The notes beneath the pieces were generated by a model, which saw only the letters and a list, made by a program, of their open reading frames with translations, was not told the origin of the DNA and made no database searches. From positions 230,723-294,722 of the forward strand of contig NC_090610.1 in the NCBI RefSeq assembly GCF_004359215.1: DNA of 64,000 nt, read 5' to 3'. Made by a program: the position numbers and the translations under genes. Below, one piece after another: positions 1 to 61,608 of this stretch; position 1 is the stretch's first letter; every line of letters starts with the position of its first letter. The stretch is from Bremia lactucae. Lineage: Eukaryota > Oomycota > Peronosporomycetes > Peronosporales > Peronosporaceae.

Positions 1-2476
1 ACCATACCGGCGCAAACGCCAGTCTCGCGGAAAGATGTTCTGTTGAACTTCATGAGGTAGGCAACATTCTTTTCCGCGTTAGATTCTAAGGATAGCTACT
101 ATCAGGTACTCATGAGAGAGTCCGATGTAGCCAAAACTGCAGTAAGCACCCCAAGCGGTTAGCTTGTGATGCCCCAAGATTTAAAAAACGCACTGGCGAC
201 ATTCAACTGAGTTGTGCTACACGTGATGCGTCAGCACTGTGCCTACGCGCTCCATTACTCTGACGATGCATTCGTGCATAGTAGGGCCAAGGACGGGCTG
301 AGCGCAATAGAGTCGCACAAGCGTCATTTAGACGCTGTGTTGCAGACTTTGAAGGAGGCCCAATTGTACGTCAACTTGCAAAAGTGTGTCATAGGGATCT
401 TTGAGATACCTATGGTGGGCTGCATCGTTGGTACACATGGTGTACGAGCGGACCTAGACAAGGTAAATCAGTAAAGGAATGGCCAATCCCACGGCATGTA
501 AGGGATTTCCGCCAATTCCTAGGGCTCGCTAATTACTTGCATAAGTATAGCAAGAATTATGCGGAGCAAACTAAACCATTGTCTGACCTCCTTAAAAAGG
601 ACTCAGAATGGGTTTGGTTAAAACAACAAGAAGACGCGTTTACATCAGTGAAGCAGTCTCTTGTAGAGGCACCGGTCTTGGCATTGCCAGGCGCACATAA
701 GCACTCTAGCGTCGTCTGTGATGCAAGCAATTTTGCAAACGGAAGCGCGCTCATGCAAAAGGATGACGACGGCGTCGACGGTGTCATTTATTTTCAGTTC
801 CGGCTTTTAAAAGCCGCGGAACTGAATTGCCCTGTGCATGACAAGGAGCTATTTGCAATAAAGTATGCTCTTGTTAAGTTTCGAGTGCACCTATTGGGCA
901 CCGAACCATTTGTGGTTTATACGGATCACGCATCATTTTAAACCGTAATAAATTTATTGCACTTCTCGCCTAGAATGGCAAGATGGCTCACATTCTTCTC
1001 TGAATTTAATTTCGAAGTTGAATACAAGCTGGGTAAGTCGAATGTCTTGGCTGACGCGTTATCGCGCAGACCAGATTTCGAGGAAAGACACCAGGAAGTG
1101 TGTCTAGTGCTAAAGCACAATCGAAGCAGTCAATGTTGGCAGCCATTAAGGCCCACCACGTGACGACCCCATTGGCCTCCGAAATAAAGGAGGGCTATAG
1201 TCAGGAAGCACATTGTCGTCTGCTGTTGGATTACTTCACTTCTGGACGAAAGGTTTCCCTTTCGTCGCACCTGAAAGCTTAGCAAATCACTTAAGCTACA
1301 GCGATAGCCCGTTATGGCATCACCTGTCACCTTGTGATTCCTTGAGAGATTATGTGCCTCCTGACACAGATCTCAAGCTGATGATCCTTGACGAGCTCTA
1401 TGATGCGCCATCGAGTGGGCATCTTGGCCGTAAAAAGACATTTGTAAGAGTGTCAGAGGAACGTTGGTGGCTACACAGGGTATCAAGTCAACGACAGAAA
1501 TTTGCCCTAGTGACCTTTCCAGTTTAGCAGTGGTCAATAAAACTACGTCCTATTACCGACCTCTTGGCGGTGCCATTGGCGATTTAGATGCTAAAAGCGT
1601 GAGCGAGGCTCAACGCTTTGTGGATGAGCGATTAGCCATCACACGAAAAGTTCGTGACGAGATGGCAAGCGCACAGATTCAACAAAAAGAATATGCTTTT
1701 CGAAATGGTCGCAAAAATAATGAACGCTTTAGAGTGGGAGAAAAAGTAATGTTAATTACTGCTACCCTACCTAAAAATGCAATTTCTGTACTATGAAGTT
1801 ATTGCAACGTTTCATTGGGCCGTTTACGGAGGTAGAAGAGGTTGGAGACCTAAGTTATAGGCTCACACTTCCCCCGTATATGAAGCCGCACTCCGTATTT
1901 TACGTGGGTCGTGTGTAACGGTATGTAGACCCAGAAGAGATCACATACCCCCATCCGCATAAGGAGATCGATGGTGACGTCGACTATGAGTCGAGCGTCG
2001 ATCAAGTGAGGGAGACGGGGAAGGTGAAAAACTTCCAGCCGAATGACTCCTCCCACGACAATAAGGGCTCGGAGAGCGAGGGATACCACGCGCATAATGC
2101 GGGCCCCTCAGCATCAATTTCTCCAGGATATCAAGCCGAACTTCCATGCGTTCAAACCCTGGCGAACCTTCGGACGTACATCCTGAAGATCTGGGGTCAG
2201 TCGCAAGACTTGACCCTCGAGATCCTCAATGCGTCGTTCAGCAGCGCTTAACGCCTGTGACGGAACGGATGCGGGTATGGCAGCCGCGGTTAGGTGGGTG
2301 GAATCGCCACATCTATCGGGCGCCGCCTGCACTGATAGATGCGGGTGGAAATCAACGCTTCCATGTTTGAAAATTGCTTGCATATCCGAAGAGTTTTGAC
2401 TCTTGGGAACCGATCGATATCCTACGTCTTTATGTGCCCGGCGTGGTGACTATCTCTCGAAAAGAGCACTAGCTGA
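1..2476 (+). mobile_element. Degenerate Ty3/gypsy pol, family A (RT to chromodomain)
   Basis: The window opens inside a reverse transcriptase reading from left to right. In order I see RT palm remnants with a decayed YxDD region (about 214-474), the RNase H segment with 'VVCDASNFANGSALMQK' (537-941) and 'LADALSRRP' (near 1040), integrase pieces (1213-1527), the integrase tail (1464-1930; 'RFIGPFTEV' near 1815), and a chromodomain remnant containing 'YPKSFDSWEPID' (near 2380). Frameshifts and stops separate every block, so no protein can be made. Most of the integrase core is missing compared with the copy at 24.6-31.9 kb, so an internal deletion is likely near 1480-1520. It is followed by the antisense ORF typical of this family. 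Confidence 0.85.
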
Positions 2477-2489
2477 GGACTCTCCGCTA

Positions 2490-3880
2490 GTCACAATGGA
2501 CTAGCAGGAGTAGCGTGTGAAAAGAAACAGGGGGTACAGTAGCGCCAATAATTTATCATACGCAACAGGGCGAAACTTTTTCGCTGCAATCATTTTTTAA
2601 CCGCATTTTGTGAATTCAGCCTCGTATTGGTCGGGCGTTTCATTTGAACGCAACACGACCGGGATCGGGAAAAGACATCCAAGCGATTTCTACTAAGCCT
2701 TCCATGAATTAAAGACGCCATAATAATTATGAGCATCTAGAATAGCGCGCTGGATGCGATATTTTTGGCCCATTGAGATGGAGGGGGCATAAGTGCTTTG
2801 TTATGTAGGTGGGCACGTCTTAATGCGGCCACGCTCAAATAAAGCACACACCCTAGCACAGCAAAATTGCGGTTTTACCGTCTTCTCTCACGTGCAGTGA
2901 GATAGAAGGTGGGCGCCTAAGCGACCCCACCCAACGAACTATAAGCCGAGACGAAGGGACGTCACGGGAGCGGTAGTCCCGCTCCACATGCGCAAAAACA
3001 CCGATTTCAGAATTCGGTGAGAGTTAAAACACGCAAGTCTAGCTGTCAACATGCGACTTCATTTTCAAAAGGCAAACTATCGTTGCTAAAGTTCGAAGCC
3101 AAAAATTACTCAAACTCAGCGTTTTTCGCAGATGAACTGCTTGGTGCACATTTAGGACTGTGCTGACGCCCATTTCGTTCTAGAAAGTAGTTTTCAGACT
3201 GATTTATATTTAATCGTACCAAATAGAAGCTCCTATTTTTAAATAATCCTAAAATGCCGTCTCCGTAGAAAGACACTAGTATGTGTTGCGAGCGTATTTT
3301 TCTAGACACCTCGCGTAACGAATGACGCTAGCCGTCGTCCCCGCTAATGTGAATGCCGTTAGGGACATCACATATACAACGGTGAGTCACAATGTGAACC
3401 ACACCCAAGTGGTGGGTCTAATTACTTCATTAAGTAATTGGCCATCTTCTTGAGTACACAAAGTGTACTTAACGAGAATTGTTTTACATAGGGCAACTTT
3501 TGCTCGTCCCATGCCACCCATCACATAGCCACGTTCGATACGACTGTCTTGTGGCACCGACTAGACACGCTCAGGTGCCGTCGGTGGAGGTTTAAGCTCA
3601 GGCTCTTCTGCGTCGGACACATTGTGAATGATGGTCTGAACGATAAGTGTTAAGGGTTTACTTAACTGAGAAGCAGCTGCGCCTTTATGGGCAGCGCTCT
3701 CATTAATTGTTGATACGCTAGCCAGCGCAGACGACAGACATCACTAGAAAACTTTGTTGTCTCCATGTTAGGAGCAATATTTGAAGTTTGGATGAGCAAT
3801 AAAGCGCCATCATCCTTGATCATTAGCTCGCTGTCCTCATCACAACTATGAGGTGATGCCTTCTCTTTGACGATTTGCAA
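2490..3880 (-). pseudogene. Antisense ORF of family A, copy 1, split by an inserted LTR
   Basis: This lies on the strand opposite to the upstream pol. Reading right to left, 3880-3662 encodes an N-terminal part with 'IKDDGALLLIQTS', matching the copy at 23.9-24.1 kb. 3660-3511 continues it, an LTR-A copy interrupts it, and 2790-2490 carries the C-terminal part with 'IPVVLRSNETPDQYEAEF' (about 2611-2665). The same protein segments occur in the same order in two other copies (23787-24644 and 32923-33985). Frameshifts make this copy a pseudogene. I recognise no known domain and assign no function. Confidence 0.6.
2804..3509 (-). repeat. LTR-A inserted in the antisense ORF
   Basis: This is the reverse complement of the LTR-A consensus. 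The left end is TGTAGGTGGGCACG, which corresponds to the LTR 3' end ...CCTACA. Internal landmarks match the solo LTR at 20705-21365: the TTGGGTGAGGTCGC-type block and the block with CTCGCGTAA next to GATGACGCTAG. The right end is eroded and no clean target duplication is visible. It splits antisense ORF copy 1, whose halves lie on both sides. Confidence 0.75.
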
Positions 3881-21365: not shown

Positions 21366-22051
21366 AAATACGTTAGGAATGCTAAGGCAGCACGCTCAAT
21401 GCTTTGTAGTTGTCGAGAAAAGTTCACGTGTTATGGCGGAATTTTGTGTCATCTCGTTAATAACATCGGACACAGCAAAGTTGTGCCTATATTTAAATAC
21501 ATTAGATCGGACAACGTAAATTTGTCCCTAATTCCACCGGTTGCCCTTCAGTTGTTATTGAAACGTGGTGTGGTTCAGATTAGAGTTCAATATTGATTAG
21601 TAATACCTTATCGCTAAAGGGAGGCGACACGCGTTGGCAACCATATAGAAATATACTGGCAGTGCTAATTTAGCAGGTAGTCTATATCAGGCTAACTAAA
21701 GATAAAGCATTTTTTACTTCTCGAATAATCTCCGTAGAATTAAGTGGCTCTTGAGCTTAAAGTAAGCTCTTAAAAAGCCCATTACACCTTTGGAGGTGGT
21801 GACAGCTCCTATTTTGACGCGCACATGCTGACGCGTCTGCCCCGCGAACAAGATTTCTAATGGCAGTCTGCCGTTAACGCAATCGAGGCCTGAATTGCGT
21901 GTCATAGTGGAAGCTGGTGACATTGTTACTTTTGAGAAAGAGGGGGACATTGCATATCTATTTTGGATTTTTAACCATAAGACTTTTTATCTTGTCACGA
22001 AGTAAAAAAATGGGATGTTAGGTGGCTTGTAGGTGCTACATTTACTTAAAG
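21366..22051. other. Unrecognised sequence between LTRs
   Basis: One minus-strand frame at 21950-21714 (78 codons, 'CVNGRLPLEILFAG') is the only notable open stretch, and I do not recognise it. The end of the region (21960-22050) is AT-rich. It may be a remnant of an older insertion. Confidence 0.3.
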
Positions 22052-22385
22052 TGTAACGGGGTGTATCGTTACGAAATTAACACTTAAAGGTTGTTAATTA
22101 ATATATTATCTAAAAAGTAGAGAATATTTGGAGAAAATTACTTTATATAGTAATGTTCAGAAATCTTATTCATAAATAGGTAGAGGCCATTATATCTATT
22201 TATCCCGAAGACTAATCAGCTGTAAACGTAAACAAAGAGAGAGACAGATAAGATTTCAATTCCATGTTTAGTATTAGTTTATGATTATAGATAGAAAGAA
22301 GAGATACTTAATTATTTTAATACAGCTATCATTAAACCCTCATTAAGGTAGTTGTCTTGAATAGAAGTCTTCCTTAGATATGTCA
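22052..22385 (+). repeat. LTR-B, 3'-truncated
   Basis: It begins TGTAACGGGGTGTATCGTTA and follows LTR-B through the ATAATATATTAATTAAC-type block (here in reverse sense) and the 'AATCAGCTGTA' block. It loses similarity near 22385, before the terminal CCCCGTTACA. It is in inverted orientation to the LTR-B at 22761-23189. Confidence 0.75.
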
Positions 22386-22416
22386 ATCTTTAAGGTTTCC
22401 GGACAACGCGTGTGCG

Positions 22417-22760
22417 TTATCCCAGAAACAGAAGTCTGTACTGCTGTAACCTCAACAGTTCTGCCTGTTGAGAGCCTTGTTGATTCAGCAAGGCTACCTT
22501 CTCCTTCGCCTCGTCAAGTTCATGTTGTATGAACTTGGCGATGGCTGAATGGAGTGCATCTCTGTCCAAACTGGACAGCATGGCCAAGATGGCATCGTTC
22601 CCTACGGTCGAACTCATTCGTTCGACCGCACTCCTTTCTATGTTACTTAGAAAAGAGTAGCTTTCACGCGAAACGTGATGCGAATTCCCACTATCATCTA
22701 AAATGTCCATGTTAGATGAAGGAAATGTGGTCCTTGGACGGACTACAAAGTGCTACCAGG
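22417..22760 (-). mobile_element. Family B gag start and primer-binding site
   Basis: Reading leftward from the LTR-B at 22761, the first bases are CCTGGTAGCACTTTGTAGTC: a primer-binding site starting two bases after the LTR. The frame 22710-22417 follows (97 aa; 'MDILDDSGNSHHVSRES' then 'LDEAKEKVALLNQQGSQQA'). It matches 62165-62290 in the other family B copy. It is probably the Gag N-terminus with a coiled coil. It is truncated downstream, where an inverted LTR-B fragment begins. Confidence 0.7.
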
Positions 22761-23189
22761 TGTAACGGGGCACTACGACTTGTACTGTTTCAGAACAAGT
22801 CCACTTCGCACTGCTTCAGTTGCGAGTGATGCCTTACGTCACTTCACGCACACTAGTACGTGCAGAGGGAGGCTTCTCTTAAGACAACTAACTTAAAGAG
22901 GGTTAAATGAAAACTGTATTAAAATAATTAAGTATCTCTTCTTTCTATCTATAATTATAAACTAATACTAAACATGCAATTGAAATCTTATCTGTCTCTC
23001 TCTTTGTTTACGTTTACAGCTGATAAGTCTGCGGGATAAATAGGTATAATGGCCTATACCTATTTATGGATAAGATTTCTGAACATTACTAAATAAAGTA
23101 ATATTCTCCAAATATTATCTACCTTTTGGATAATATATTAATTAACAACCTTTAAGTGTTAATTTCATGTAACGATACACCCCGTTACA
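22761..23189 (-). repeat. LTR-B, 5' LTR of a minus-strand element
   Basis: 429 bp, bounded by TGTAACGGGG and CCCCGTTACA, a perfect 10-bp inverted repeat. The primer-binding site and gag on its left side show it is a 5' LTR read on the minus strand. Its right end abuts a truncated LTR-A, so the B element inserted into or next to that older LTR. Confidence 0.88.
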
Positions 23190-23659
23190 CTAGCACAGCG
23201 AGGAAGCGGCTAAACCAGCTTATCTTGCGTGCAGTGAGGTAGTTGTGGTGAACGCCTTAGCGACCTCACCCAACGCACTATGTACTCGAGTAAAGTGTCG
23301 TCACGGGAGCGGTAATACGGCTCCACTTAGTAAGTAGAAAGTATTTTTTAGACTGATTTATAGTTAATCGCATCAAATATAAATACCTATTTTTACCAAT
23401 CAAAATGTCATATCTGAACACGACTATGTATTGGGAGCGTAACTTTCTAGATACCTCGCGTAATGGATGACGCTAGCCGTCATCCCTCCTAATGTGAATG
23501 CACCTATGTGCATTTACATACACAAGGGTTGGTCACAAATGTGAACCACACCCGAGTGGTGGGTCTAATTACTTTATTTAAGTTATTGACCATCCCCTTA
23601 AGTACATCAAGATTACTTAAAGGGACTGTGTAACTTTAGGGCAACTTAAGCCCGTTACG
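23190..23659 (-). repeat. LTR-A, 3' LTR of the large minus-strand family A element
   Basis: It reads on the minus strand from CGTAACGGGC (start, at 23659) with all LTR-A landmarks, and is cut at 23190 by LTR-B before its own CCTACA end. The adjoining 23660-23676 read CTTAAAGGGGGGATGG on the minus strand, a good polypurine tract. Orientation therefore agrees with the pol at 24.6-31.9 kb. Confidence 0.82.
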
Positions 23660-23786
23660 CCATCCCCCCCTTTAAGACCGAATTTACATTTAGAATTCGT
23701 CAAAGCGGAAGGAGGAACTGCGAGCTGCATAACGCGCCGCTAGGTCTCCCATTCACTTTAGCGACCTGTGTTTTCATACACGGCGC

Positions 23787-24644
23787 TAGATATGCCACCT
23801 AAAGGAGGCCGCGTTAACGCGCCGGCAGCCTCCAATGCCTTAGTCGAAACGCCGACAGCTACTGCTGCTGTCGCGTTAACGGGGCAGCAGCAGTAGCTGT
23901 CGGCTTACGGATCCATCCCACTTTAACAGTGAGGATATTGATCCCTCGCTCATTGTAGTGATTCGGACAACGATCTCATGAGGAAGAATGATAGAGCATT
24001 ATTGCCCATTCAAACTTCTCTCATGGCTCACAACATGAAGACAGCAACATTTACGAATGCTGTCTCGTCGTCTGCGCTAAATAGCGCAGCGACGGTTAAT
24101 GATAGCGCTGCCTTTAAGGCGCAGCTGCTTCTTCGTTGGCTAAACCCACAACGCCTTATGCTCAGATCATTATCCATAATGGTTGTGACATAGAGTACTC
24201 GGAGCCTAAAGCTCCGCCGACGACACGTGAACGTGCTCAGTCGGTGTCACAAGACAGTGGTTTTGAACGTGGCTATGTGGCGGGTGGCATGTCACTGATG
24301 CTAACTCCATTTAAATGGTCTCGTTTAAACGGGCCAAGAGCGTCGCTCCAAGAGCGCGCTCTTTTAGGCGCACATAATTCTTATGGCGCCTTTAAGTCAT
24401 GGAGGGCTCATGGAAAATCGCTTGGGCGTATTTTCCCGATCCCGGTCGTGTTGCGTTCAAATGAAACGCCCGACCAATACGAGGCGGAATTCAGCGCCGC
24501 ATTCATCCGCTTTCTGATGCGATGAAACAGCGGTCGCAGCGAATTAATCTAGCCCGCTTGTGTGAAAGCCATCATGGGCGGTACTGTACCCCCTGTTTCT
24601 TCTCACAGCGCTACTTCTGCTTGTCCATTTGACACTAGCGAAGA
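23787..24644 (+). pseudogene. Antisense ORF of family A, copy 2
   Basis: It lies on the plus strand, between the minus-strand chromodomain and the minus-strand polypurine tract and LTR. It starts at 23787 with 'MPPKGGRVNAPAAS'; the copy at 33985 starts 'MPPKRGKTAGSS'. It passes through 'EDIDPSLIV' (23932) and 'LLPIQTS' (24000). From 24136 there is a 129-codon frame with 'TRERAQSVSQDSGFERGY', 'RASLQERALL' and 'IPVVLRSNETPDQYEAEF' (24439-24492), and after a one-base shift 'DAMKQRSQRINLARLC'. About 260 aa could be encoded if intact. It is basic with no recognised domain. At 23851-23904 there is a 20-bp foldback absent from copy 3. Confidence 0.65.
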
Positions 24645-26282
24645 GGCCTCAGCTGGTGCTCCTTTTCATAGGCAGCCACCAAGCCGGGCGCATCAATACG
24701 TAGGGTATCGATGGCTCCCAAGAGTCGACACTCTTTCGGCTAACCTTTCCATTGGACGAGGATCTGATACCTTTGCCTCACGGAGCGGTAGAGCAAGCAA
24801 CCTTCCAACTAGAAAGCGTTGATTCCCACCCGCATCCATCAGTGCAGGCGGCGCTCGATAGGAGTGGCAATCTCGCCCACCTACTCAGGGCTGCCTTACC
24901 TTCGTCCAATCAGTCACAGGCGTTTAGCGCTGCTGAACGACGCATTGCGGATCTCGAGGGTCAATTCTCGCGACTGAATTCGGATCTTTGTGATGTCCGA
25001 GCGAAGGCTCGTCAGGTTATGAACGCTGAAGACTCGCTTGGACCTTTTTGAGCGGATAATGCTGAGGGAACCGCGTTACTCGCGTGATGTCCCTCGCTCT
25101 TCGAGTCCTTTTCGTGATGGGAGGAGTCGATCGGCTGATAGTTTTTCGCCTTCTCCGTCTCCCTCACCCGAACGACGCTCGACTCACAGTCGGCGTCACC
25201 ATCGGTCTCCTTAGACGGATGGGGGTATGTGACCTCATTTGGGTCTACATACCGTTTCAGACGACCCACGCAAAATACGGGGGGTGTCTTCAGATACGGG
25301 GGAAGGGTGAGTCTATAATTTAGGTCTCCAACCTCTTCTACCACCGTAAAGGGCCCAATGAAACGCGGCAACAACTTCCTAGTACCTCCAGGTAGTGCAG
25401 AAATTGAATTATTAGGTAGGGTAGCAGTACATAATAGTACTTTTTCACCCACTCTAAAGCGTTCATTATTATTGCGACCATTTCGGTCCGCAAATTCTTT
25501 TTGCTTGTCCTGTGCGCTTGCCATCGCGTCACGGATTTTCGTGTGATGGCTAATCGCTCATCCACAAAGCGTTGAGCCTCGCTCACGCTTTTAGCATCAA
25601 ACTCGCCTATGATACCGCCAAGAGGTCGGTCATAAGGCGTAGTTTTATTGACCACTGCTAAACTGGCAGGGTCACTAGGGCAAGTTTCAGACGTTGAGAT
25701 GATACCTTCGCGGGTCATCGTTATATTGGCGAAACTATGCCCCTCTTTCTCACCGAGCATAGTGAGAGGCCCTCCGCTACTTAGACTCGGGCTGCGCACA
25801 AACGAGACTGGCGTCCGAGGATGACGCAGTCTGTTAATATAAAACGATGTCTCACCCGTACTGGCGTGGGCACTGTTATTTATAGCGAACTCGATAAAGG
25901 GCAATTGCTTGCTCCACTCTTTGGGAGCTGCTATATTGCGTAAGACATCCGCCACGACCCGATTGGCACGTTCGGTTTGGCCATCGGTCTGGGGATGATC
26001 TGCGGTCGACATATGGAGTTTGCTACGTAGCAGCTCGAACAAATGTCGCCAAAAACCAGACGTAAAATGTGGATCCCGGTCCGATACTATGGGCTCGGGC
26101 ATCCCGTGTAGTCGGTAAACATGATTTGGGAACAAGAGAGCTGCCTCCTTGCCTGTGATCGATGTCTTACATGGTGCTAAATGCACCATCTGGCTCAGTC
26201 TGTCTACAAAGACGACTAGCCCTGTCCGACCCTTATGATCGGGCGGCATGCCAAACATGAAGTCCAGACTTACTACTTCCAA
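24645..26282 (-). mobile_element. Family A integrase and chromodomain
   Basis: The frame 26282-25338 encodes an integrase core with the D,D35E triad: Asp in 'SLDFMFG' (residue 7), Asp in 'IVSDRDPHF' (68) and Glu in 'TDGQTERAN' (104). The HHCC-type zinc-binding part lies just upstream (about 26290-26470, 'CEQCHRIKPAP'-like). A frameshift near 25540 leads to 25524-25012, with 'LLPRFIGPFTVVEEVGDLNY' and a Ser/Glu-rich tail. The chromodomain remnant ('QRYQILVQWKG') is at about 24820-24700. It joins the processed DNA to the genome and targets chromatin. This is the best-preserved integrase core in the window, but the polyprotein is broken. Confidence 0.85.
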
Positions 26283-26289
26283 GAGTTGG

Positions 26290-27113
26290 TTGGAATCGGT
26301 AGCGGCTTCAGTGGCGCCATGCTGGACGGTGCAGGCTTATGCGGTGACACTGTTCGCAAGAGCGAATCTAATTGGGTACCCATTTACATGTGTGTGGCCA
26401 CCCATATTCGTGTGACCCTTAAGATTCTTTTCACGGTCAGATGTCTTTTCATGGCGCATATGGGCTCTTGAAGGATCATCAGCTTGAGATCTGTGTCATG
26501 AGGCATAGAGCTTCTCAAGGGATCAGAAGGTGACAGCTGATGCCATAACAGGCCATCGCTGTAGCTAAAGCGATTTATCTTAGCTTTCAGGTGCGACGGA
26601 AGGGTTACCTTTCGTCCACCGAAGTGATCCAACAGCAGGCTACAGGGTCGTCCTGACTGTAGCTCTCTTTTATTTTAGAGGCCAATTGGCTCGTCACGTG
26701 GTATGCCTTCATGGCTGCCAGCGTTGACGGCTGAAATTGTGCTTTCGCACTAGACACACTTTCCTGGTGTCTCACCTCGAAGTCTGGTCTGCGCGATAAA
26801 GCGTCAGCTAAGACATTCGTCTTACCCGGGTTATATTCAATTTTGATATTAAATTCAGAGAAGAATGTGAGCCATCTTGCTATTCTGGCGATATGTGCGG
26901 TGAGTTTATTGCGGTCCGCAGTGATGCGTGATCGTTTAGACCACAAATGGTTCGGTGCCCAGTAGGTGCACGCGAAACTTGACAAGAGCATACTTTATTG
27001 AAAGTAGCTCTTTGTCATGGTCGGGGTAATTCAGTTCCGCGGCTTTTGAAAGCCATAAGAGATGACGCGGTTAACGCCGTCGTCATCCTTCTGTATGAGC
27101 GCGCTGCCGATTG
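26290..27113 (-). mobile_element. Family A RNase H and integrase N-terminus
   Basis: Minus-strand frames 27240-27031 ('VVCDASNFAIGSALIQKDD'), 26991-26605 ('RWLTFFSEFNIKIEY', 'VLADALSRRPDFEVRHQE') and 26632-26384 give RNase H and the start of integrase. They match the degenerate copy at 537-1330. One or two frameshifts are present. Confidence 0.8.
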
Positions 27114-28775
27114 CAAAGTTACTTGCATCGCAGACGACGCTAAAGGGCTTATCCGTGTCTGGCAATGTCAAGACCGGTGCCCTACAAGAGATTGCTTCAC
27201 TGATGTGAACGCATCTTCTTGTTTTTTTAACTAAATCCATTCTGCGTCTTTTTCAGGAGATCATATAATGTTTAGTTTGCTCCGCATAATTCTTGCTATA
27301 TTTATGCAAGTAATTAGCGATCCCTAGGAATTGGCGCAAATCCTTCACATGCCGTGGGATTGGCCATTCCTTTACTGATTTTACCTTGTCTGGGTCTGCT
27401 CGTACACCATGGGTACCTACGATGCAACCCAGTACAGGTATCTCAGGGACCCCTATGACGCACATTTGCAAGTTGACGTACAATTAGGCGTCCTTTAAAG
27501 TCTGCAACACAGCGTCTAAATACCGCTTGTGCGACTCTATTGCGCTCAGGCCGTCCTCGGCCTTACTGTGCACGAATACATCGTCAAAGTAATGGGCGCG
27601 TAGGCACGGTGCTGACGCATCACGTGAGCCACCACTCGGTTGAATGTCGCTGGTACGTTTTTCAAACCTTGGGCCATCACAAGCCACTCCCAAAGCATAC
27701 CGCTTCGGGTGCTACAGCTGTTTTGGCTATATCGGAATCTCTCATGAGTACCTGATAGTAGCCATCCTTCAAATCCAACGCGGAAAAGATAGTTGACTGT
27801 CGCATGGAGTATCTTTCCGCGGGATCGGTGTTTGCGCCGGTATGGTCGCCGTGTTCAGCTTGTTGTAAGTATGAGCCACGCGCCATCCACCTGTGGCTTC
27901 ACGCACACAAAAGGTCGGGCTGCAGTGAGGCGACTTGTTCTCACGTACGTGTCCCGATTTGGCTCGCTTGTCGAAGAACTCATCGATATAATCGACTTGT
28001 TCTTGCCGTTTCTAGGACGCTCTCGTCCATTGTGAACGACGAGCAACAGTCCACCAAGTTCTCTTCTGGAACTGGTGTGACTATTTCGTGGATCTTTCCT
28101 TCCTTAAGTTCGGACAGGAATAGATCCCACGGCGTCTCCGGGAGTTTTACTATCTCATCGGTAGATTTAAAGACTTGCTGGAGCACCTCAACTGAGGATG
28201 CCTCCGCAATTTCGTCTTTGACGGCCTCAAACACCTCGTTCGAAGGCCCGTCCTATTTAATTGGTACTGATCGAAAGGTCACTCGTTTTGACGTGCCTTT
28301 GATCGTCCTAATCTGCCGGGTACTCGTTCTTCGAGTCACCACGACCTTTGTCAGGGAAGCGGGTGCCGTTGCTCTCCTGGCTAACGCACCCCTTCCAACC
28401 GCACCAGGTTCTAGGCACTGTGCTGGTTCATGCGACGCTGTGCTTCCTGTCAGCTCGCTGTCTACTGCCACAAGCTCTCGGCTCTGTACAGGACTATGGG
28501 ACACATGACTACTTTTCATTGCCGTTTTCACTACTTCAGTCTCCACGAGCTGGGTAGGAATTGGAGACGTTTGACATCCCGTCAACGCACCCTCAGCTGT
28601 GTTCGACACGACATCAGTTGCATACGCCTCTCGCAGGAGCACATCCTTTCCGGTGTCCTGCTTAGAGTTCGAAGCTGTGGGTGTACGCCAGTCTATCCAC
28701 GGTTGGTATTTTTCATACCATGGCATGCCTAGGATGAGGCCATACGGACTCTCCGTGCCTAGCACTGTGAACTTC
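27114..28775 (-). mobile_element. Family A RT and protease-end segment, tandem copy 1
   Basis: Right to left: 'GLILGMPWYEKYQPWIDW' (end of the protease region, 28720), a Ser/Thr-rich spacer, 'EELVDCC'-like spacer text (28060), the RT start ('NTDPAERYSMRQSTIFSALD', 27820), the RT catalytic block 'YFDDVFVHSKAEDG' (27590) and 'GCIVGTHGVRADPDK' (27410). It is the first of two tandem units; the second is at 28776-30438. Confidence 0.85.
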
Positions 28776-30438
28776 AAAATTACTTGCATCGCAGACGAAG
28801 CGAAAGGGCTTATCCGCGTCTGGCAATGCCAAGACCGGTGCCTCCACAAGAGACTGCTTCACTGATGTGAACGCATCTTCTAATTATTTTAACCAAACCC
28901 ATTCTGCGTCCTTTTTCAGGAGATCAGATAATGGTTTAGTTTGCTCAGCATAATTTCTTGCTATACTTATGCAAGTAATTAGCGAGCCCTAGGAATTGGC
29001 GCAAATCCTTCACATGCCGTGGGATTGGCCATTCCTTTACTGATTTACCTTGTCTGGGTCTGCTCGTACACCATGGTACCTACGATGCAACCCAGTACAG
29101 GTATCTCAGGGACCCCTATGACGCACATTTGCAAGTTGACGTACAATTAGGCGTCCTTTAAAGTCTGCAACACAGCGTCTAAATACCGCTTGTGCGACTC
29201 TATTGCGCTCAGGCCGTCCTCGGCCTTACTGTGCACGAATACATCGTCAAAGTAATGGGCGCGTAGGCACGGTGCTGACGCATCACGTGAGCCACCACTC
29301 GGTTGAATGTCGCTGGTACGTTTTTCAAACCTTGGGCCATCACAAGCCACTCCCAAAGCATACCGCTTCGGGTGCTACAGCTGTTTTGGCTATATCGGAA
29401 TCTCTCATGAGTACCTGATAGTAGCCATCCTTCAAATCCAACGCGGAAAAGATAGTTGACTGTCGCATGGAGTATCTTTCCGCGGGATCGGTGTTTGCGC
29501 CGGTATGGTCGCCGTGTTCAGCTTGTTGTAAGTATGAGCCACGCGCCATCCACCTGTGGCTTCACGCACACAAAAGGTCGGGCTGCAGTGAGGCGACTTG
29601 TTCTCACGTACGTGTCCCGATTTGGCTCGCTTGTCGAAGAACTCATCGATATAATCGACTTGTTCTTGCCGTTTCTAGGACGCTCTCGTCCATTGTGAAC
29701 GACGAGCAACAGTCCACCAAGTTCTCTTCTGGAACTGGTGTGACTATTTCGTGGATCTTTCCTTCCTTAAATTCGGAAAGGAACAGATCCCACGACATCT
29801 CCGGGAGATTTACTATCTCATCGGTAGATTTAAAGACTTGCTGGAGCACCTCAACTGAGGATGCCTCCGCAATTTCGTCTTTGACGGCCTCAAACACCTC
29901 GTTCGAAGGCCCGTCCTATTTAATTGGTACTGATCGAAAGGTCACTCGTTTTGACGTGCCTTTGATCGTCCTAATCTGCCGGGTACTCGTTCTTCGAGTC
30001 ACCACGACCTTTGTCAGGGAAGCGGGTGCCGTTGCTCTCCTGGCTAACGCACCCCTTCCAACCGCACCAGGTTCTAGGCACTGTGCTGGTTCATGCGACG
30101 CTGTGCTTCCTGTCAGCTCGCTGTCTACTGCCACAAGCTCTCGGCTCTGTACAGGACTATGGGACACATGACTACTTTTCATTGCCGTTTTCACTACTTC
30201 AGTCTCCACGAGCTGGGTAGGAATTGGAGACGTTTGACATCCCGTCAACGCACCCTCAGCTGTGTTCGACACGACATCAGTTGCATACGCCTCTCGCAGG
30301 AGCACATCCTTTCCGGTGTCCTGCTTAGAGTTCGAAGCTGTGGGTGTACGCCAGTCTATCCACGGTTGGTATTTTTCATACCATGGCATGCCTAGGATGA
30401 GGCCATACGGACTCTCCGTGCCTAGCACTGTGAACTTC
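28776..30438 (-). mobile_element. Family A RT and protease-end segment, tandem copy 2
   Basis: It repeats 27114-28775 with an offset of 1661-1663 bp. The stretch from about 29090 to 29760 looks identical to 27430-28100 by eye, while the first 300 bp of the unit differ at roughly one base in ten. A few differences also cluster near 29765-29815. The duplicated order (protease end, RT, protease end, RT) cannot give a normal polyprotein. Confidence 0.88.
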
Positions 30439-30900
30439 TCTTTACAAGAGAAGTCACTAAAGCTGAAGGCGAGTTCTACCTGAACTCCTTCAGACTTAAC
30501 GAGCGCGCCGTTCCCTAAACGAACGGTCGCTTCTTCTCGCTTGCCATCCTGGCAAAGCGAATCAACATCGCCGGTTTCTTTCTTAGAGCCGCGAGTTTTA
30601 CAAAATATTGTGATGCACCCGATTTCACTAGGAGGGTCATCGCGTGGTCATAGCTCTTACTGGAGCGCTATAGACCAGCAGGGTTGAGGTCCGAAATATC
30701 GAGACCTCAGGTACTATGCTACCCATTTGTTCCACAACTCTGAACTTTAGCTTCAGAGTCCGCGCCAGCAGGGAATCCCGCCCCTACTGCGCTCCTGCAT
30801 TTCCCGCCCCTCAGTGGTCGATGCAGAACTCATGCATCTCGCTCACTGGTTCTTGCCATCGCCCTTTGGGTAGGGATTCCTCTTTCTGGGCGTCTTAGCA
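30439..30900 (-). mobile_element. Family A protease, active site lost
   Basis: On the minus strand 'AMTLLVKSGASQYFVKLAAL' (about 30670-30600) is the flap-side strand and active-site loop of the retroviral-type aspartic protease. Family members have D-S/T-G-A here; this copy has K-S-G-A (Lys codon at 30623-30625). Frames then shift and continue to 'FTVLGTESPYGLILGMPWY'. The copy is catalytically dead as written. Confidence 0.7.
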
Positions 30901-31916
30901 CCAGCAGAGACTTATCATAGCAGCGAGCCATCATATGGCCGCGGTTGCCGCGCTTGCCGCATTTGTAACAAACAACTTCTGCATTGCGCAACTCCATGGG
31001 AGTGGCACCTGACCTCTCGGTCGACGGCTTATACCAAGCTGTCGCCGAGGCACTGTTGTAGGATGCTCATCAACTAAGGCAATTCGGATTGCCTCTTCCA
31101 TCGTCGACGGCACCTTCCTGAAAAGGGCCTGTCGCGATGGGCCATGCCGTAGTCCGTTCATAAACGTGGGCACCTTAATGTGCTCCGGAATCGGACCTAC
31201 GGTTATGGACGCCGACAGCGAGCGCATCTCTTGCACATACTCTTGCAGAGATCACTTTGCCTGTCGCGCTCCAAAGAAGCGCGCCTGAAGCAACACTTCG
31301 TTGTTCGGCGGCTGGTACATGGCGCGAATCTTTGTCTTAAAGATCGCCCATGAAGGGAACGCTTTTCTGTCCGCCATAAGCGCGGAGCAAGCCCACTCTG
31401 AGGCCTTACCGCGCAGATTCGACAGGCGTTCGACACCATCCGGTTGTCGTCCTCGATGAGCTGCATGACACCGCATTGCTCTACGGCTAAAAGCCAGTGG
31501 ACAATCGTGTGCGCCGCAGTTCCATCGAACTTGGGCGGGTCCATCCGAATGGGCCTCGGCTGATGCGGCCGGGCAGAGAGCATCTCAACAGTCCTGTTGA
31601 GAGCCTCGCTCCGAGCCTGCTCATGCCTCAGCTCATCCTGAGTCTGAGTGATGGACTTTATCGCAGCATGGCCCTATGCCTCGGACGCGGCCCTCCGCTG
31701 TCCGAGCACGAATGCCTCAAACTGCTCCAACTGAGCAACATGTTGCTCAGGAGGACTACCCAGGAGCCTGGCCAGGGCTTGTTCACCAAGTCCCTGCGCC
31801 ATTAGCCCTGCCACCTCCCGATGATGTTCGGAGAGGTGGGGAAAATGAGCCCAATCAATGTTGAGGCTCATCCTCACGTACACACGCAGAGATGCGGGTC
31901 GTGGGAAGGATTTCAA
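30900..31916 (-). mobile_element. Family A gag with CCHC zinc knuckle
   Basis: It starts near 31870 ('MSLNIDWAHFPHLSEHHRE'). A Gln/Glu-rich coiled-coil part follows, then 'PPKFDGTAAHTIVHWLLAVE' (31540, the conserved start of a Gag capsid-type domain), 'FPSWAIFKTKIRAMYQPPNN' (31330), 'IPEHIKVPTFMNGLRHGPSR' (31180) and a zinc knuckle at about 30985-30930: 'CYKCGKRGNRGHMMARC'. The spacing is C-x2-C-x7-H-x4-C, three residues longer than the usual x4. Two frameshifts break the frame. It would have formed the retrotransposon capsid shell. Confidence 0.82.
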
Positions 31917-31937: not shown

Positions 31938-32037
31938 NNNNNNNNNNNNNNNNNNNNNNNNNNNNNNNNNNNNNNNNNNNNNNNNNNNNNNNNNNNNNNN
32001 NNNNNNNNNNNNNNNNNNNNNNNNNNNNNNNNNNNNN
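31938..32037. other. Assembly gap (100 N) between inverted family A copies
   Basis: A run of 100 N. On its left is the 5' end of a minus-strand A element; on its right is integrase-tail sequence of a plus-strand A element that is nearly identical to 25524-24645 inverted. The junction is suspect. Confidence 0.99.
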
Positions 32038-32922
32038 CGCACAGGACAAGCAAAAAGAATATGCGGACCGAAATGGTCGCAATAATAATGAACGCTTTAG
32101 AGTGGGTGAAAAAGTACTATTATGTACTGCTACCCTACCTAATAATTCAATTTCTGCACTACCTGGAGGTACTAGGAAGTTGTTGCCGCGTTTCATTGGG
32201 CCCTTTACGGTGGAAGAAGAGGTTGGAGACCTAAATTATAGACTCACCCTTCCCCCGTATCTGAAGACACCCCCCGTATTTTACGTGGATCGTCTGAAAC
32301 GGTATGTAGACCCAAATGAGGTCACATACCCCCATCCGTCTAAAGAGACCGATGGTGACGCCGACTGTGAGTCGAGCGTCGTTCGGGTGAGGGAGACGGA
32401 GAAGGCGAAAAACTATCAGCCGATCGACTCCTCCCATCACGAAAAGGACTCGAAGAGCGAGGGACATCACGCGAGTAACGCGGTTCCCTCAGCATTATCC
32501 GCTCAAAAAGGTCCAAGCGAGTCTTCAGCGTTCATAACCCTGACGAGCCTTCGCTCGTACATCACAAAGATCCGAATTCAGTCGCGAGAATTGACCCTCG
32601 AGATCCGCAATGCGTCGTTCAGCAGCGCTAAACGCCTGTGACTGATTGGACGAAGGTAAGGCAGCCGTGAGTAGTTGGGCGAGATCGCCATTCCTATCTG
32701 GCGCCGCTTGCACTGATGGTGATACGGGTGGAGATCAAGCTTGCTTGTTGAGAGGTTGCTTGCCCACCGCTCCGTGAGGCAAAGGTATCAGATCCTCGTC
32801 CAATGGAAAGGTTACCCGAAGAGTTTTGAATCTTGGGAGCCGATCGATACCCTATGTATTGACGTGCCCGGCTTAATGGCTGCCTATGAAAAGGAGTACC
32901 AGCTGAGGCCTCTTCGCTAGTC
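32038..32922 (+). mobile_element. Family A integrase tail and chromodomain, plus strand
   Basis: It begins in 'AQDKQKEYADRNGRNNNERF', then 'LLPRFIGPFTVEEEVGDLNY', 'VFYVDRLKRYVDPNEVTYPH' and a Ser/Glu-rich tail. After several stops the chromodomain appears: 'QRYQILVQWKGYPKSFESWE', ending 'EYQLRPLR' and a stop at 32922. It is highly similar to 25524-24645 in the opposite orientation. The stop abuts the end of the antisense ORF that follows. Confidence 0.85.
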
Positions 32923-33985
32923 TCAACACAAGCGTGCGAAATTAATTCGCTGCGACCGCTGTTTCATCGCATCTGAATGCGGATGAATACGGCGCGTGAA
33001 TTCCGCCTCGTATTGGTCGGGCGTTTTATTTGAACGCAACACGACCGGGGTCTGGAAAATACGCCAAAGCGATTTTCCCTGACCCTTCCATGATTTAAAG
33101 ACGCCATAATAATTATGTGCGTCTGGAAGAGCGCGCTCTAGGAGCGACGCTCTTGGTCCGATTAAACGAGTCCATTTAGATGGAGGGGGCGTTAACGATA
33201 TGCCACCCGTGAGATAGCCACGTTCTAAACGACTGGCTTGTGACACCGACTGAGCACGTTCACGTGTCATCGGCGGAGCTTTAGGCTCGGAATCCTCTAT
33301 GTCAGTACATTTGTGCATAATGGTCTGAACTTTAGGCTCACTGCACGCCAGAGAAGCCGGTCTATCCGCTTCCTCGCTGTGCTAGGGTTTGTGTCTAAGT
33401 AGAGCGTGGCCGCATTAAGACGTGCGCGCCTTCAGTAAGACAGTTGCAGCCCAAATTGTAGGTCGAATGCTCAAGAAGGTCAATTAAGTTGTTGACCTGT
33501 AACTCGGAGGAGGTTTACATAGTGACCCACCCTTGTGTATGTGACGCACACAGGTGCATTTGTATTAAATGTGGGGCTGACGTCTTAGACTGACGTCGTC
33601 TGCGCTAGCTAGCGCAGACGACGAGACAGTTGCCTTGAAGACGTTAGGCAAGTTTGCCTTCGCAACCTTAGGTGTCTCCTTGTTAGAAGCAAGAGGGGAA
33701 TGGTGAATGAGCATTACAGCGTCATCATCCTTCCCCATTACCTCGCTGATCACTACTATGTGGTGATGGCATCAGTGTCGACTAATTGTAGTCAACAATG
33801 AGCGACGGATCTACATTCTCAATGTGCAAGTGGGATGGATTTTTGTGCTTAGTTGACAGCGCGACAGCAGCAGTTGCTGTCGGCGATGACGGCGTTTTAT
33901 CGCGGCGCGTACGCTTTGTTTTCGGTTGTGTGTTTATGTCTTTGCAGACGACCCAGCAGTTTTGCCCCTTTTAGGTGGCATGAGG
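32923..33985 (-). pseudogene. Antisense ORF of family A, copy 3
   Basis: Read right to left it starts at 33985 ('MPPKRGKTAGSS'), continues with 'ENVDPSLIVDYN' and, after a shift, 33753-33565 ('MGKDDDAVMLIHHSPLASNK', 'SSSALASADD'). An inserted LTR-A fragment interrupts it. It then continues uninterrupted from 33318 to 32923 (131 aa) with 'EPKAPPMTRERAQSVSQAS', 'RASLLERALPDAHNYYG', 'VVLRSNKTPDQYEAEF' and 'RRIHPHSDAMKQRSQRI'. It ends one base after the pol stop. In the shared C-terminal part it is about two thirds identical to copy 2 by eye. Function unknown. Confidence 0.65.
33335..33592 (+). repeat. LTR-A fragments inside antisense ORF copy 3
   Basis: The pieces are out of order: 33335-33440 matches the LTR-A 3' part (CTGTGCTAGGGT, GAGCGTGGCCGCATTAAGAC) and 33475-33592 matches the 5' part (CTTGTGTATGTGA, GTGCATTTGTATTAAATG). 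The order 3' part then 5' part suggests a rearranged or partly deleted insertion. Its right edge forms a perfect 30-bp palindrome with the host ORF (33594-33623). Confidence 0.65.
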
Positions 33986-55109: not shown

Positions 55110-56728
55110 ATGGTGAGCGCTGGTGCTTGGCGTCAATACACTAATCGAAAGCGCGCTAATCCTATTGATTTTAGGCTTCCGTATTCCTTGGAGATCTCAA
55201 TGACTTCATTCAGCCGTCGCAGGCGTGCATAAATCCGCTATTCACATCGGACAAGCCAAAGGACGACGGCAGCACTATCGGCACAGCCAAAATTACTCTA
55301 CAGACGGAGCTCTCGGCCGCTGATTTAGTGTTGCCACAGGCTGTCAAGCCCAATATCATTCGTACCTCAACAGAAGAAAAAGCGACAATTTCCTTAGACG
55401 ACTGCCTTGCCTGCAGCGGGTGCGTCACGTCAGCTGAGACCGTGCTCATCTCGCAGCAGAGTTATAAGGAAATGCTAGACGTGGTGGCTCTTCAAAATCA
55501 TAAATTCCATATCGTGACGATTTCACCGCAATCAAGAGCATCATTAGCCGCGCATTTTTCAATGCCGGTAATAACTGTACACCGCAAGCTCGTGACAATG
55601 TTTCATAATCTTGGAGTAAACCTAGTGATCGACTCGACGACAAGTGGAGACTTTGCTCTACTTGAGTCTCGGGAAGAATTCTTGGCGCGATATCGCAACC
55701 AGCAAAAAACAATTTGGGCCCGACCTCCGTCTTCTGTCGCAATTTCGTCCGCCAAGACCGAGATTTTAGAGACAAGTACTGCTGCGATGCCGCTACAGGA
55801 CCCCCTTGTAGCGATTCCAATGTTGGCGTCATCTTGCCCTGGCTGGATTTGCTATGCGGAGAAATCGCAGCCGAATGCGATTCCATTTATTGACACGACA
55901 AAGTCACCGCAACAGATTGCCGGTTCGATCATCAAGCGTTTTGTGAGTGGTGAGCATGGCATTAAGCCAAACGACGTCTACCACGTTGCAGTGATGCCGT
56001 GCTTTGATAAGAAATTAGAGGCGTCACGAAAGGACTTTCAAGATCCAGAGGACGCAACGAAAGACGTCGACTGTGTGCTAGCTACGACAGAGATAATTGA
56101 ACTTCTTGAGGCGGTAAATGTTGATTTTGCGTCTCTGGAGCTTGCGAACTTATCGCCAGAAGAAGTTTTGCTAAGCGGTATATCGGAAGATGGATTAAGT
56201 GTCTTAGGTAGCAGCCTAAAGGCCAGTTCAGGTGGTCAGCTCGAGCATATTTTCCGCTATGCTGCCAAACAGCTTTTTAACGTTGAGATTAAGGGCCCGC
56301 TGGAGTATGTTACCGCTCGAAATTCAGACTTTCAGGAAGTCAAGCTCGTAGTAGGCGGCAACGAGGTTCTCAAATTTGCCATTGCTTATGGTTTTCGCAA
56401 CATTCAGTCGATCATGACGAAAATTAAAAGGAATCGGTGCCCGTATCACTACGTTGAGATCATGGCGTGTCCGAGTGGGTGTTTAAATGGAGGTGGGCAA
56501 ATTCGACCGAAGTCGACGCTGTTAGCATCCGAATTGCTTTCGAACGTCACAAAGTGCTTCGAGCAGCTCCACTTGCGCGACCCTATGGCCAATCCTGCGG
56601 TAAAGTTGGTGTACGATAAGTATCTAGACGGCATGCCCTTTTCAAAACTCGCGCGTGAAGTGCTGCACACGCGATATCACGCTGTGCCCAAGCTCGAGCA
56701 GCTAAATCCATTGGGCATTAAATGGTGA
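55110..56728 (+). CDS. NAR1: Cytosolic Fe-S cluster assembly factor NAR1 (IOP1/NARFL, iron-only hydrogenase-like)
   Basis: Two exons give 518 aa. Exon 1 is just the start codon ATG (55110-55112). A 62-bp GT-AG intron follows, and exon 2 is 55175-56728. This yields 'MASVFLGDLNDFIQPSQACI', the conserved family start. The N-terminal [4Fe-4S] ligands are Cys19, Cys78, Cys81 and Cys84 ('CLACSGC'). The H-cluster-like site has 'SSCPGWICY', 'VMPCFDKK' and 'MACPSGCLNGGGQI'. The protein ends in Trp (LGIKW), as in other NAR1 proteins. NAR1 takes clusters from the Nbp35/Cfd1 scaffold to the CIA targeting complex in the cytosol. The length is near the usual 480-500 aa. An alternative start at Met53 (55328) would remove Cys19, so the spliced start is preferred. 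Confidence 0.93.
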
Positions 56729-56841
56729 TCTATTCAAGCTTAAATACAATCGAAAGAGGCCGCGGTGCAATCGTATTGACCGTTCTATCTAATCTCAACG
56801 TAAGCATTTGGCGCGTTGGTAGCAAGTATTTATAAAAATTC

Positions 56842-58266
56842 TCAGTCCTTTCGAGAAGCTTGTGCTGTGATGGCCACCGTCGCCTTAGCCTGGTGTCCCA
56901 CATGCACCGGACAGAGCACACTGGTCTCGTCCGCCTGGTGCTGACCGTCCTTCACTCCCCACAACACCTCGTGGATGCAAAAACTTCGCAAACTACGTCG
57001 CAAAGCGCGCACCTTACAAACTAGCCACGCAGGCATGAAGGTCTCATCAGAGCATACGGATGAACCCTGTGACTCGAACTTTTCGACTTCACCCAGAAAC
57101 GCTTCATGCCATCCTTGATCGCGTTTCTGGTGTCGAGTCTCTTCTTTATCCATCCACTGCTGGCTGTGCATCACCATGCAGCCCATGATTAATGGCAGAT
57201 ACCACAGCGATGCTAAAAAGACCTTTTGCGCCGTGGCATTCGAAGGCTTTGCTTGAAATTGGTGGGTCAAGTAAATGTTATACGCATTCACGACCGTGCC
57301 TTCGACCGCAAACATGTAGCTAGTAGCGTTCGTAAGCGCCGCAACGATGGGAATCGCACTCATAAAGTAGGAATAACGCAGTGCTAATGCTGCACTGCGA
57401 GAGCCCGTGGGATCATTACATGCCACCATTTGGTAACCACCGCGACGGTAATCTTTCCGCGACCGCCAGCTCAATGCAAAGAAGTGCGGCATCTGCCAGC
57501 AGTACATCAGATACGCGTGCAATGCAGCTTCAGGCGCGAACACGGAGCCCGTGGCTGCGGCCCACCCCATCACAGGCGGGACCGCGCCCACGATGGAGCC
57601 CACCCACGTATTCCATTCGCTTTTCATCTTCATAGGCGTGTAAACTAGCGAGTAGAGGCCAATATTGAATACGCCCAGAGATGCCACAAGTGGGCTGCAT
57701 CCCGCGGCGAGGATGACGGTGCTGGCCGTAGCTGTTACAGCTCCAAAAGTCAGCGCATGTGGCTGCGAGATACGCCCAGACGGTAGCGGTCGGCGGTGCG
57801 TCCGCTGCATTTTTGCGTCTAGCTCCACCTCCCAACACTGATTGAACGTGTTGGCCGAAGCTGCAGCGAGAGAGGTTCCAACGGCCGCAGCGGCAAAGGT
57901 ACTCCACGTGATAGGCCCGCCAGCCATGAAGAAACCCGCACTCGTTGTCATGACCACCAGTGCGCTGAGACGCGCTTTGCTTAATTGGCTATAAATAGAC
58001 AAGCGGTCTTTTAGCGACATGGTCTCGGATAGCGGCGCCGCATCGACGGCATGAATGGTCGTAATAGCCGTAGCCTTGGCGCCAGTAGCTGCAGCTGCCA
58101 CTTCGCCCGTGAGACGGGTTGAATACAATCGGATTGCACATCGAGAAATACGGGCGCCAGAGTGCTGACCATAGGATGCAGCAAGCAGCACTGCGTGCGC
58201 ATGAAGAGTGGCGGACGTGAACATTTCAGAAGGAACAATGACCAACACGCCTACGGGCACGCTCAA
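56842..58266 (-). CDS. COX10: Protoheme IX farnesyltransferase COX10 (heme O synthase), mitochondrial
   Basis: Single exon, 474 aa. This UbiA-family prenyltransferase converts heme B to heme O for cytochrome c oxidase, in the inner mitochondrial membrane. Sequence marks: 'KARLSALVVMTTSAGFF' (first membrane segment), 'ASANTFNQCWEVELDAKMQR' followed by 'THRRPLPSG' (allylic-diphosphate site; the first acidic position is Glu), 'YTPMKMKSEWNTWVGSIVGA', 'PPVMGWAAATG', 'CWQMPHFFALSWRSRKDYRR' and 'GGYQMV'. Seven to nine hydrophobic segments follow the family plan. The first 60 residues are rich in Ala, Ser and Arg, a mitochondrial presequence; translation may begin at Met15 (58224). A C-terminal tail of about 100 residues beyond the last membrane segment is unusual. 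It converges on NAR1, with 113 bp between the stops. Confidence 0.95.
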   Translation of the reverse strand: MSVPVGVLVIVPSEMFTSATLHAHAVLLAASYGQHSGARISRCAIRLYSTRLTGEVAAAATGAKATAITTIHAVDAAPLSETMSLKDRLSIYSQLSKARLSALVVMTTSAGFFMAGGPITWSTFAAAAVGTSLAAASANTFNQCWEVELDAKMQRTHRRPLPSGRISQPHALTFGAVTATASTVILAAGCSPLVASLGVFNIGLYSLVYTPMKMKSEWNTWVGSIVGAVPPVMGWAAATGSVFAPEAALHAYLMYCWQMPHFFALSWRSRKDYRRGGYQMVACNDPTGSRSAALALRYSYFMSAIPIVAALTNATSYMFAVEGTVVNAYNIYLTHQFQAKPSNATAQKVFLASLWYLPLIMGCMVMHSQQWMDKEETRHQKRDQGWHEAFLGEVEKFESQGSSVCSDETFMPAWLVCKVRALRRSLRSFCIHEVLWGVKDGQHQADETSVLCPVHVGHQAKATVAITAQASRKD

Positions 58267-58997: not shown

Positions 58998-59485
58998 TGT
59001 AACGGGGCACTACGACTTGTACTGCTTCAGTAAAAGTCCACTTTGCACTGCTTCAGTAAAAGTCCACTTCGCACTGCTTCAGTTGCGTGTGGTGTCTTAC
59101 GTTATTTCACGTACACTAGTACGTGCAAAGGAAGACTTCTCTTTAAGGCAACTAGCTTAAAGAGGGTTAAATGAAAACTGTATTAATATAATTAAGTATC
59201 TCTTCTTTCTATCTGTAACTATAACTCATTATAAACCAATACAAAACATGCAACTGAATTCTTATCTTATATTATCTTATCTTATCTATCTCTCTGTTTT
59301 GTTTATATCTACAGCTGATTTGTCTGCGGAATAAATAGATATAATGGTCTATACGTATTAATGGACAAGAATTCCGAACATTACTTTATAAAGTAATATC
59401 CTCCAAATATTATCTAACTTTCAAGATAATATATTAATTAACAACCTTTTAGTGTTTATTTCATGTAACGATACACCCCGTTACA
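58998..59485 (-). repeat. LTR-B, 3' LTR of a minus-strand element, with polypurine tract
   Basis: 488 bp, TGTAACGGGGCAC ... CCCCGTTACA. On the minus strand the sequence just before it (59506-59486) is TTTAAGGGAGGGGTGA, a polypurine tract. This proves it is the 3' LTR of an element lying to the right and read leftward. It contains an extra copy of a 27-bp unit (59022-59085). Confidence 0.85.
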
Positions 59486-59561
59486 TCACCCCTCCCTTAA
59501 ACGACAACCACTCTGACTGTCATTGGATAGAGTGGTCACTATGTGACCATTTAATGTTAAA

Positions 59562-61585: not shown

Positions 61586-61608
61586 CTAATGACATTCAGA
61601 GTGATTGT

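Follow-up and report, generated by a model that had tools for sequence, protein, structure and literature searches.

The family A element of Bremia lactucae is a Ty3/gypsy retrotransposon with sense gag and pol genes, pol ending in a chromodomain, and with a third gene on the opposite strand. This antisense gene is very likely a real protein-coding gene of the element. We analyzed a 64-kb stretch of DNA (C1:230723-294722, referred to as the window) and searched the genome of 115,934,607 bases in 220 contigs. One genomic copy, L026 (C8:79199-82516), has an antisense frame that stays open for 493 codons, beginning with MPPKRG and ending with RRHHRSP. The probability of an open frame of this length arising by chance at the base composition of L026 is ~3e-9. 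R coordinates are those of L026 in the orientation that lets the antisense gene read forward. The window contains the following features:

23187..23662, minus strand: 3' LTR of family A, by homology to L026 R412-927 and to other LTRs in the window
23663..23673, minus strand: polypurine tract, read from the sequence
23792..25214, plus strand: antisense gene, broken copy (ATG to stop equivalent), homologous to the open frame L026:784-2262:-
24178..24522, plus strand: open piece of the conserved central block in the antisense protein (matched by all 150 scored genome candidates; helical prediction for P0006)
24635..24815 (upper bound approximate), minus strand: chromodomain end of pol, by PF00385 in copies L013 and L030
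24816..25214, minus strand: pol linker from the integrase SH3-like domain to the chromodomain, facing the antisense coiled coil and RS tail
24926..25061, plus strand: coiled-coil segment of the antisense protein
25015..25557, minus strand: integrase C-terminus, SH3_Tf2-1 (Pfam 54.5 bits)
25341..26336, minus strand: integrase core (rve E 1.1e-5, below cut-off)
27034..27252, minus strand: RNase H of pol (RT_RNaseH_2 45.2 bits)
27680..27898, minus strand: reverse transcriptase fragment (RVT_1 E 0.016, weak)
30833..31673, minus strand: gag, sense and in its usual place, with a CCHC-like knuckle recognized by eye (weak Retrotrans_gag match, E 0.0073)
32340..33981, minus strand: second window copy of the antisense gene, divided by LTR sequence of family A at ~33338-33703
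1959..3856, minus strand: third window copy of the antisense gene, split by an inverted LTR at 2804-3507

In the element adjoining the antisense gene at 23.8 kb, gag-pol is on the minus strand and the antisense gene on the plus strand. The order of gag, protease (recognized by eye only), RT-RNase H and integrase, together with the LTR and the polypurine tract, is that of Ty3/gypsy elements; several of the domains fall under the Pfam cut-offs because the copy is degraded. The outer end of the 3' LTR is truncated by another repeat. The 5' LTR was not found within the window, and the element is incomplete there. An assembly gap occupies 31938-32037, and a portion of the PR-RT block is duplicated (27412-27711 and 29075-29374, 100% identical and 1,663 bp apart). 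The inner edge of the LTR is at 23662. A preliminary description of this DNA had placed the polypurine tract at 23676-23660 and the antisense start at 23787. The tract is present with the extent 23663-23673, and the ATG is actually at 23792, with the stop equivalent at 25212-25214. In family A, the antisense ATG is found ~130 bp inward of the 3' LTR.

The same antisense protein had been proposed at three places in the window, and this was borne out by P0006 of Peronospora effusa, which matched each of them on the antisense strand: the 23.8-kb copy (24151-25208, E 1.8e-59), the 32-kb copy (33330-32346, E 1.1e-49) and the 2-kb copy (2755-2132, E 5e-29). None of the three window copies has an open antisense frame; the 23.8-kb copy (row L009 of the alignment) differs from L026 by 16 frame-shifting indels. 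Genome searches with the central piece gave matches at E ≤2.2e-42 for all 150 scored candidates (of 2,774 at first look), and all 150 scored candidates (of 1,871) also matched the C-terminal piece. The antisense-gene family is large in this genome and its host element is very abundant. For the published B. lactucae assembly, gypsy elements are given as 58.6% of contig sequence, and its size as 115 Mb, 24 Mb of it gaps, with repeats collapsed (PMC6570648).

We aligned 83 stretches (80 loci plus the three copies in the window). After removal of 12 with under 400 aligned ORF sites or with a difference below 1% from a retained stretch, 71 remained. Coverage of the ORF was near-complete in 37 of the 71, and L026 was the only one of these without a stop or frame shift. 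Closed frames in full-length copies had been named beforehand as evidence against a gene; 36 of the 37 nearly complete copies are indeed closed, which we interpret as copies in decay.

Protein searches over 5.8 billion proteins gave 13, 27 and 12 matches (with ~8,000 candidates scored in the first two), and at least 28 distinct related proteins (P0001-P0028) were collected. Among the matches listed, all members with a named source are from Peronospora (P. effusa and P. farinosa), and the titles of these records read only "unnamed protein product" or "Uncharacterized protein"; the other members are ENA or "lgn" records. Identity to L026 ranges from 44 to 90% for the 27 homologues. Several homologues are full length at 480-488 aa, and P0001 has 559 aa including an upstream extension. 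P0006 of P. effusa represents 19 member sequences. These comparisons show that the antisense gene encodes a conserved protein with a predicted length of ~480-495 aa.

In two of the homologues the gene appears to be flanked as it is in Bremia. P. farinosa P0008 continues for 60 aa past the common C-terminus, and this extension matches the antisense reading of the family A pol C-terminus (R2465-2644, 65% identity over 60 aa, E 6e-22). In P0001, the residues that precede the MPPKRG start correspond to a reading through the boundary between polypurine tract and LTR (R888-1013, E 5e-10). In both proteins the visible side of the gene is therefore flanked as here, and the continuation of the P. farinosa protein into the antisense of pol argues that the arrangement is common to both genera.

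The antisense protein has a basic N-terminus (KRTRR), a helical central block, a long coiled coil and an Arg/Ser tail. Mean pairwise identities among six full-length members (L026 and five homologues) were 65% for residues 1-30, 43% for residues 31-62, 82% for DPSLIVDYNEST, 35% for the poorly conserved residues 77-155, 62% for the central block, 46% for residues 301-345 facing the chromodomain, 59% for residues 346-397, 65% for the coil and 57% for the tail. An AlphaFold2 model of P0006 (27 sequences; mean pLDDT 56, pTM 0.25) predicted helices at 193-213, 234-245 and 249-271 with middling confidence and a long helix or coil at 369-435 with block pLDDT up to 97, the remainder being low. A heptad scan was consistent with a coiled coil. 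No Pfam family exceeded its cut-off in six members, and a PDB search gave a sole match at E 1.1. No membrane-like segment was found in five members (maximal 19-residue hydropathy 0.74-1.34), which counted against an env identity, and no envelope gene was seen in family A.

To look for selection, we contrasted singletons with variants shared by four or more, or by six or more, of 70 copies (the 71 without L026, whose codons served as context), stratified by reference base and by transition or transversion. Young variants are expected to be near neutral because most copies are dead. In the antisense-only part (R1057-1930), the N/S ratio was 2.97 for singletons (487/164) and fell to 1.43 (93/65) and 1.23 (49/40) for the older variants. 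Stratified odds ratios for the antisense frame were 1.86 (p 5.5e-4) and 2.09 (p 6.3e-4). The sense frame showed no constraint in the same part (OR 0.74 and 0.64), in agreement with the preliminary description, which had seen no sense frame of comparable conservation. In the 40 copies that had not been picked by the antisense-only part, variants in at least 3, 4 and 5 copies gave OR 1.66, 1.75 and 1.55 (p 0.0039, 0.0078 and 0.043). A dN/dS near 1, which had been held to speak against a gene, applies to the young variants only (singleton N/S 2.97) and not to the old ones (1.23-1.43).

As a control, the LTR/leader (R412-1056) read in the same register was not significant after stratification (OR 1.37, p 0.099; OR 1.31, p 0.18), nor was it in the 40 copies (OR 1.33-1.46, p 0.16-0.25). 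Unstratified, the two cut-offs gave p 0.0064 and p 0.057 for this control, and the stratified figures are therefore those to trust. The positive control, the own frame of pol in its sense-only part (R2536-3318), was not significant (OR 1.24, p 0.22; OR 1.33, p 0.20), so the power of the test is limited, its p values should not be over-read and the negative result in sense-only pol carries little weight. The opposite frame sharing the wobble register (-x) gave OR 1.76 and 2.04, almost equal to the antisense frame; we take this signal as an echo of the antisense frame because stops close -x in L026.

Indels present in at least 20 copies were of 21 and 3 bp in the ORF, which keeps the frame, and of 1 and 2 bp in the LTR/leader. 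Among indels in at least six copies, two of the four in the ORF were multiples of three, against none of ten in the LTR/leader and none of five in sense-only pol. In the class shared by 3-5 copies, none of the ten in the antisense-only part was a multiple of three, and one of the three in the overlap with pol was. The depletion of amino-acid changes among old variants is a sign of selection in the lineages behind the copies. The within-genome evidence for selection alone is moderate, and the conservation of the full-length frame across genera is the stronger argument. Cross-genus conservation, the variant test and the absence of sense-frame constraint in the antisense-only part together uphold the earlier proposal of an antisense protein-coding gene at this place.

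The order chromodomain, antisense ORF, polypurine tract and LTR had been described correctly for the 23.8-kb element, but the ORF also overlaps the chromodomain and the preceding linker (~24635-25214), and this overlap with pol is new. In L026, the sense pol frame has one stop and runs from the SH3-like domain through a linker of ~135 aa into the chromodomain, with its end at R1961. Because the antisense ORF extends to R2535-2538, the two genes overlap tail to tail by ~575 bp. The chromodomain (PF00385, cut-off 25.1 bits) scored 35.1 bits in L013 and 26.1 in L030; L011, with 16.1, was below the cut-off. In the window it faces antisense residues ~302-361. The linker stop, ~36 codons before the chromodomain, is present in L026 and in 16 of 57 scored copies, and 13 more copies are gapped there.

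Sense codon positions 1/2/3 stand opposite antisense positions 1/3/2, and a wobble change on one strand therefore alters a second codon position on the opposite one. In the region facing most of the chromodomain (R1961-2105), the sense frame was constrained (stratified OR 3.05, p 0.016; 2.47, p 0.068 at the higher cut-off), with an echo in frame +2 (OR 2.56, p 0.045), and the antisense frame was unconstrained (OR 0.69-0.70). In R2106-2535, the first ~35 bp of which are still opposite the chromodomain start, the sense frame was unconstrained (OR 0.67-0.68) and the antisense frame weakly constrained in all copies (OR 1.47, p 0.066-0.091). For the 44 copies selected with the central piece or the sense probe, the antisense OR there was 1.74-2.20 (p 0.006-0.065); the sense probe reaches with its end into the final 47 bp of the region. 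The pattern, with its modest statistics, suggests that constraint switches strands along the overlap.

Taken as a whole, the data are best explained by an accessory antisense gene, probably for a nuclear regulator, expressed from an antisense promoter of the 3' LTR, and we regard this reading as reasonably probable. The gene runs toward pol from near the 3' LTR and ends inside pol. From its place, a promoter in or beside the 3' LTR would drive its transcription, followed by translation. The basic KRTRR terminus would allow nuclear entry, the coiled coil would form an oligomer, and the helical block with the Arg/Ser tail could bind nucleic acid or a host factor. The protein may in this way control LTR transcription, silencing or the handling of genomic RNA, and antisense transcription convergent with pol could add some damping by the RNA itself. 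The assignment as a nuclear regulator draws on composition and analogy, and we give it a somewhat better than even chance.

The protein could instead be a structural or particle component encoded on the minus strand, such as a second gag-like protein or an RNA chaperone, and no regulator. The coiled coil, basic N-terminus and RS-rich tail fit RNA binding, and many gags are similar in length to the antisense protein. We consider this unlikely, since a sense gag with a CCHC-like knuckle is already located upstream of the protease and Pfam detected no gag domain in six antisense proteins. A captured host gene, as the preliminary description had allowed, or what is left of a different transposon caught in the element is improbable; the three protein searches, each capped in candidates or restricted in its word set, gave this antisense family alone among the matches listed, no Pfam family exceeded its cut-off and no PDB match was better than E 1.1. 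The suggestion of a host gene thus found no support, even though the gene is oriented opposite to the element and capture of this kind has been considered for the antisense ORFs of plants (PMC7264820).

There is also a slim chance that the conserved entity is DNA or RNA, i.e., a regulatory region or a non-coding antisense transcript, and that no protein is made. Non-coding antisense RNAs are described for retroelements (PMC7264820), and the closed frames of 36 of the 37 nearly complete copies would fit, but the N/S shift in one open frame, the frame-keeping of the commonest indels and the protein-level conservation in the 27 homologues all argue against it. That the frame is a codon-bias echo of the sense gene, for which the echo in frame -x could be cited, can practically be dismissed, since ~900 of its 1,480 bp lie past the end of pol, where the sense frame is unconstrained (OR 0.64-0.74) and all three minus frames of L026 contain stops.

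An accessory antisense gene at this place has parallels elsewhere. Antisense accessory genes beside the 3' LTR are described for plant elements, a fungal element and retroviruses (PMC7264820). The antisense ORF of plant Tat/Retand elements has the same place, between pol and the 3' LTR, and the same orientation; the sources describe plant antisense ORFs as having no assigned function, with the Grande product reported to be nuclear (PMC7264820, PMC11963269). TRP28 is reported to be encoded in 97% of Retand clusters (PMC11963269), whereas six members of the antisense-protein family gave no TRP28 (PF04195) match at E up to 1. We detected no kinship to Retand TRP28 at the sequence level, as expected if, in line with the preliminary description, the oomycete gene is an independent equivalent of the plant Tat case. 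Family A also differs in having a chromodomain and in the overlap of its antisense gene with pol; the word "overlap" is absent from the main text of both plant papers (PMC7264820, PMC11963269).

By description, brtn of the Boty-like elements of Botrytis cinerea is similar in being an extra antisense gene of a fungal gypsy element (PMC7264820, PMC8365987). HBZ of HTLV-1 is described as an antisense gene expressed from the 3' LTR with a nuclear product (PMC10186651). The family A gene resembles it in starting near the 3' LTR, in overlapping a sense gene and in its predicted long coiled coil; unlike HBZ, six members of the protein family had no Pfam match to bZIP families. Chronos is described as an oomycete Ty3/gypsy element with a chromodomain at the pol 3' end and a defining dual RNase H (gRH plus aRH) (PMC5348765). 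Family A shares the chromodomain position (over the cut-off in L013 and L030). One RNase H was matched in the scanned pieces of the degraded window copy. The word "antisense" is absent from the main text of the Chronos paper (PMC5348765), as is "oomycete" from the plant review (PMC7264820), and no report of an antisense gene in oomycete elements was found by title or abstract start among the open-licence PMC papers listed.

An additional case in oomycetes, seemingly separate from the others, would be an argument that the location as such is functionally favored. More tentatively, with the odds below even, an oomycete gypsy element may carry an HBZ-like antisense regulatory gene that is independent of those of plants, fungi and retroviruses and shares DNA with the chromodomain end of pol, with constraint switching from pol over the chromodomain to the antisense gene over its coiled coil. 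If this is true, chromodomain targeting and antisense regulation would be genetically interlocked.

In some copies of the family A Ty3/gypsy element, the sense pol frame is interrupted by a stop codon at R2249-2251 (coordinates of the genomic reference copy L026, turned so that the antisense gene reads forward), corresponding to about 24924-24926 on the minus strand of the window and located ∼36 codons ahead of the chromodomain. The same stop was common to 16 of the 57 scored family A copies, and it may be the mark of a subfamily with a pol that lacks the chromodomain.

Two identical direct repeats (27412-27711 and 29075-29374, spaced 1,663 bp) were found in the window, through which the element's PR-RT region is partly duplicated. 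The repeat pair reflects either a tandem duplication of recent date or an artefact of the assembly. An inverted family A LTR (2804-3507) is contained in the antisense gene of the third window copy (1959-3856, minus strand). Another repeat family with matching ends (22050-23190) adjoins and truncates the family A LTR at about 23187; the truncating repeat was found again near 59-61 kb (59446-61666). Two long, oppositely oriented host ORFs occupy 55328-58266; judging by sequence, they presumably encode an iron-only hydrogenase/Nar1-type protein and a COX10-like prenyltransferase.

At 9 of the 20 genomic loci picked by the sense (pol) probe (L069-L088), the match to L026 stops at one identical point, R2454, and is followed by N. 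The nine loci probably represent sequence from collapsed repeats that the assembly positioned at gaps. If this is true, the affected copies would seem falsely young.
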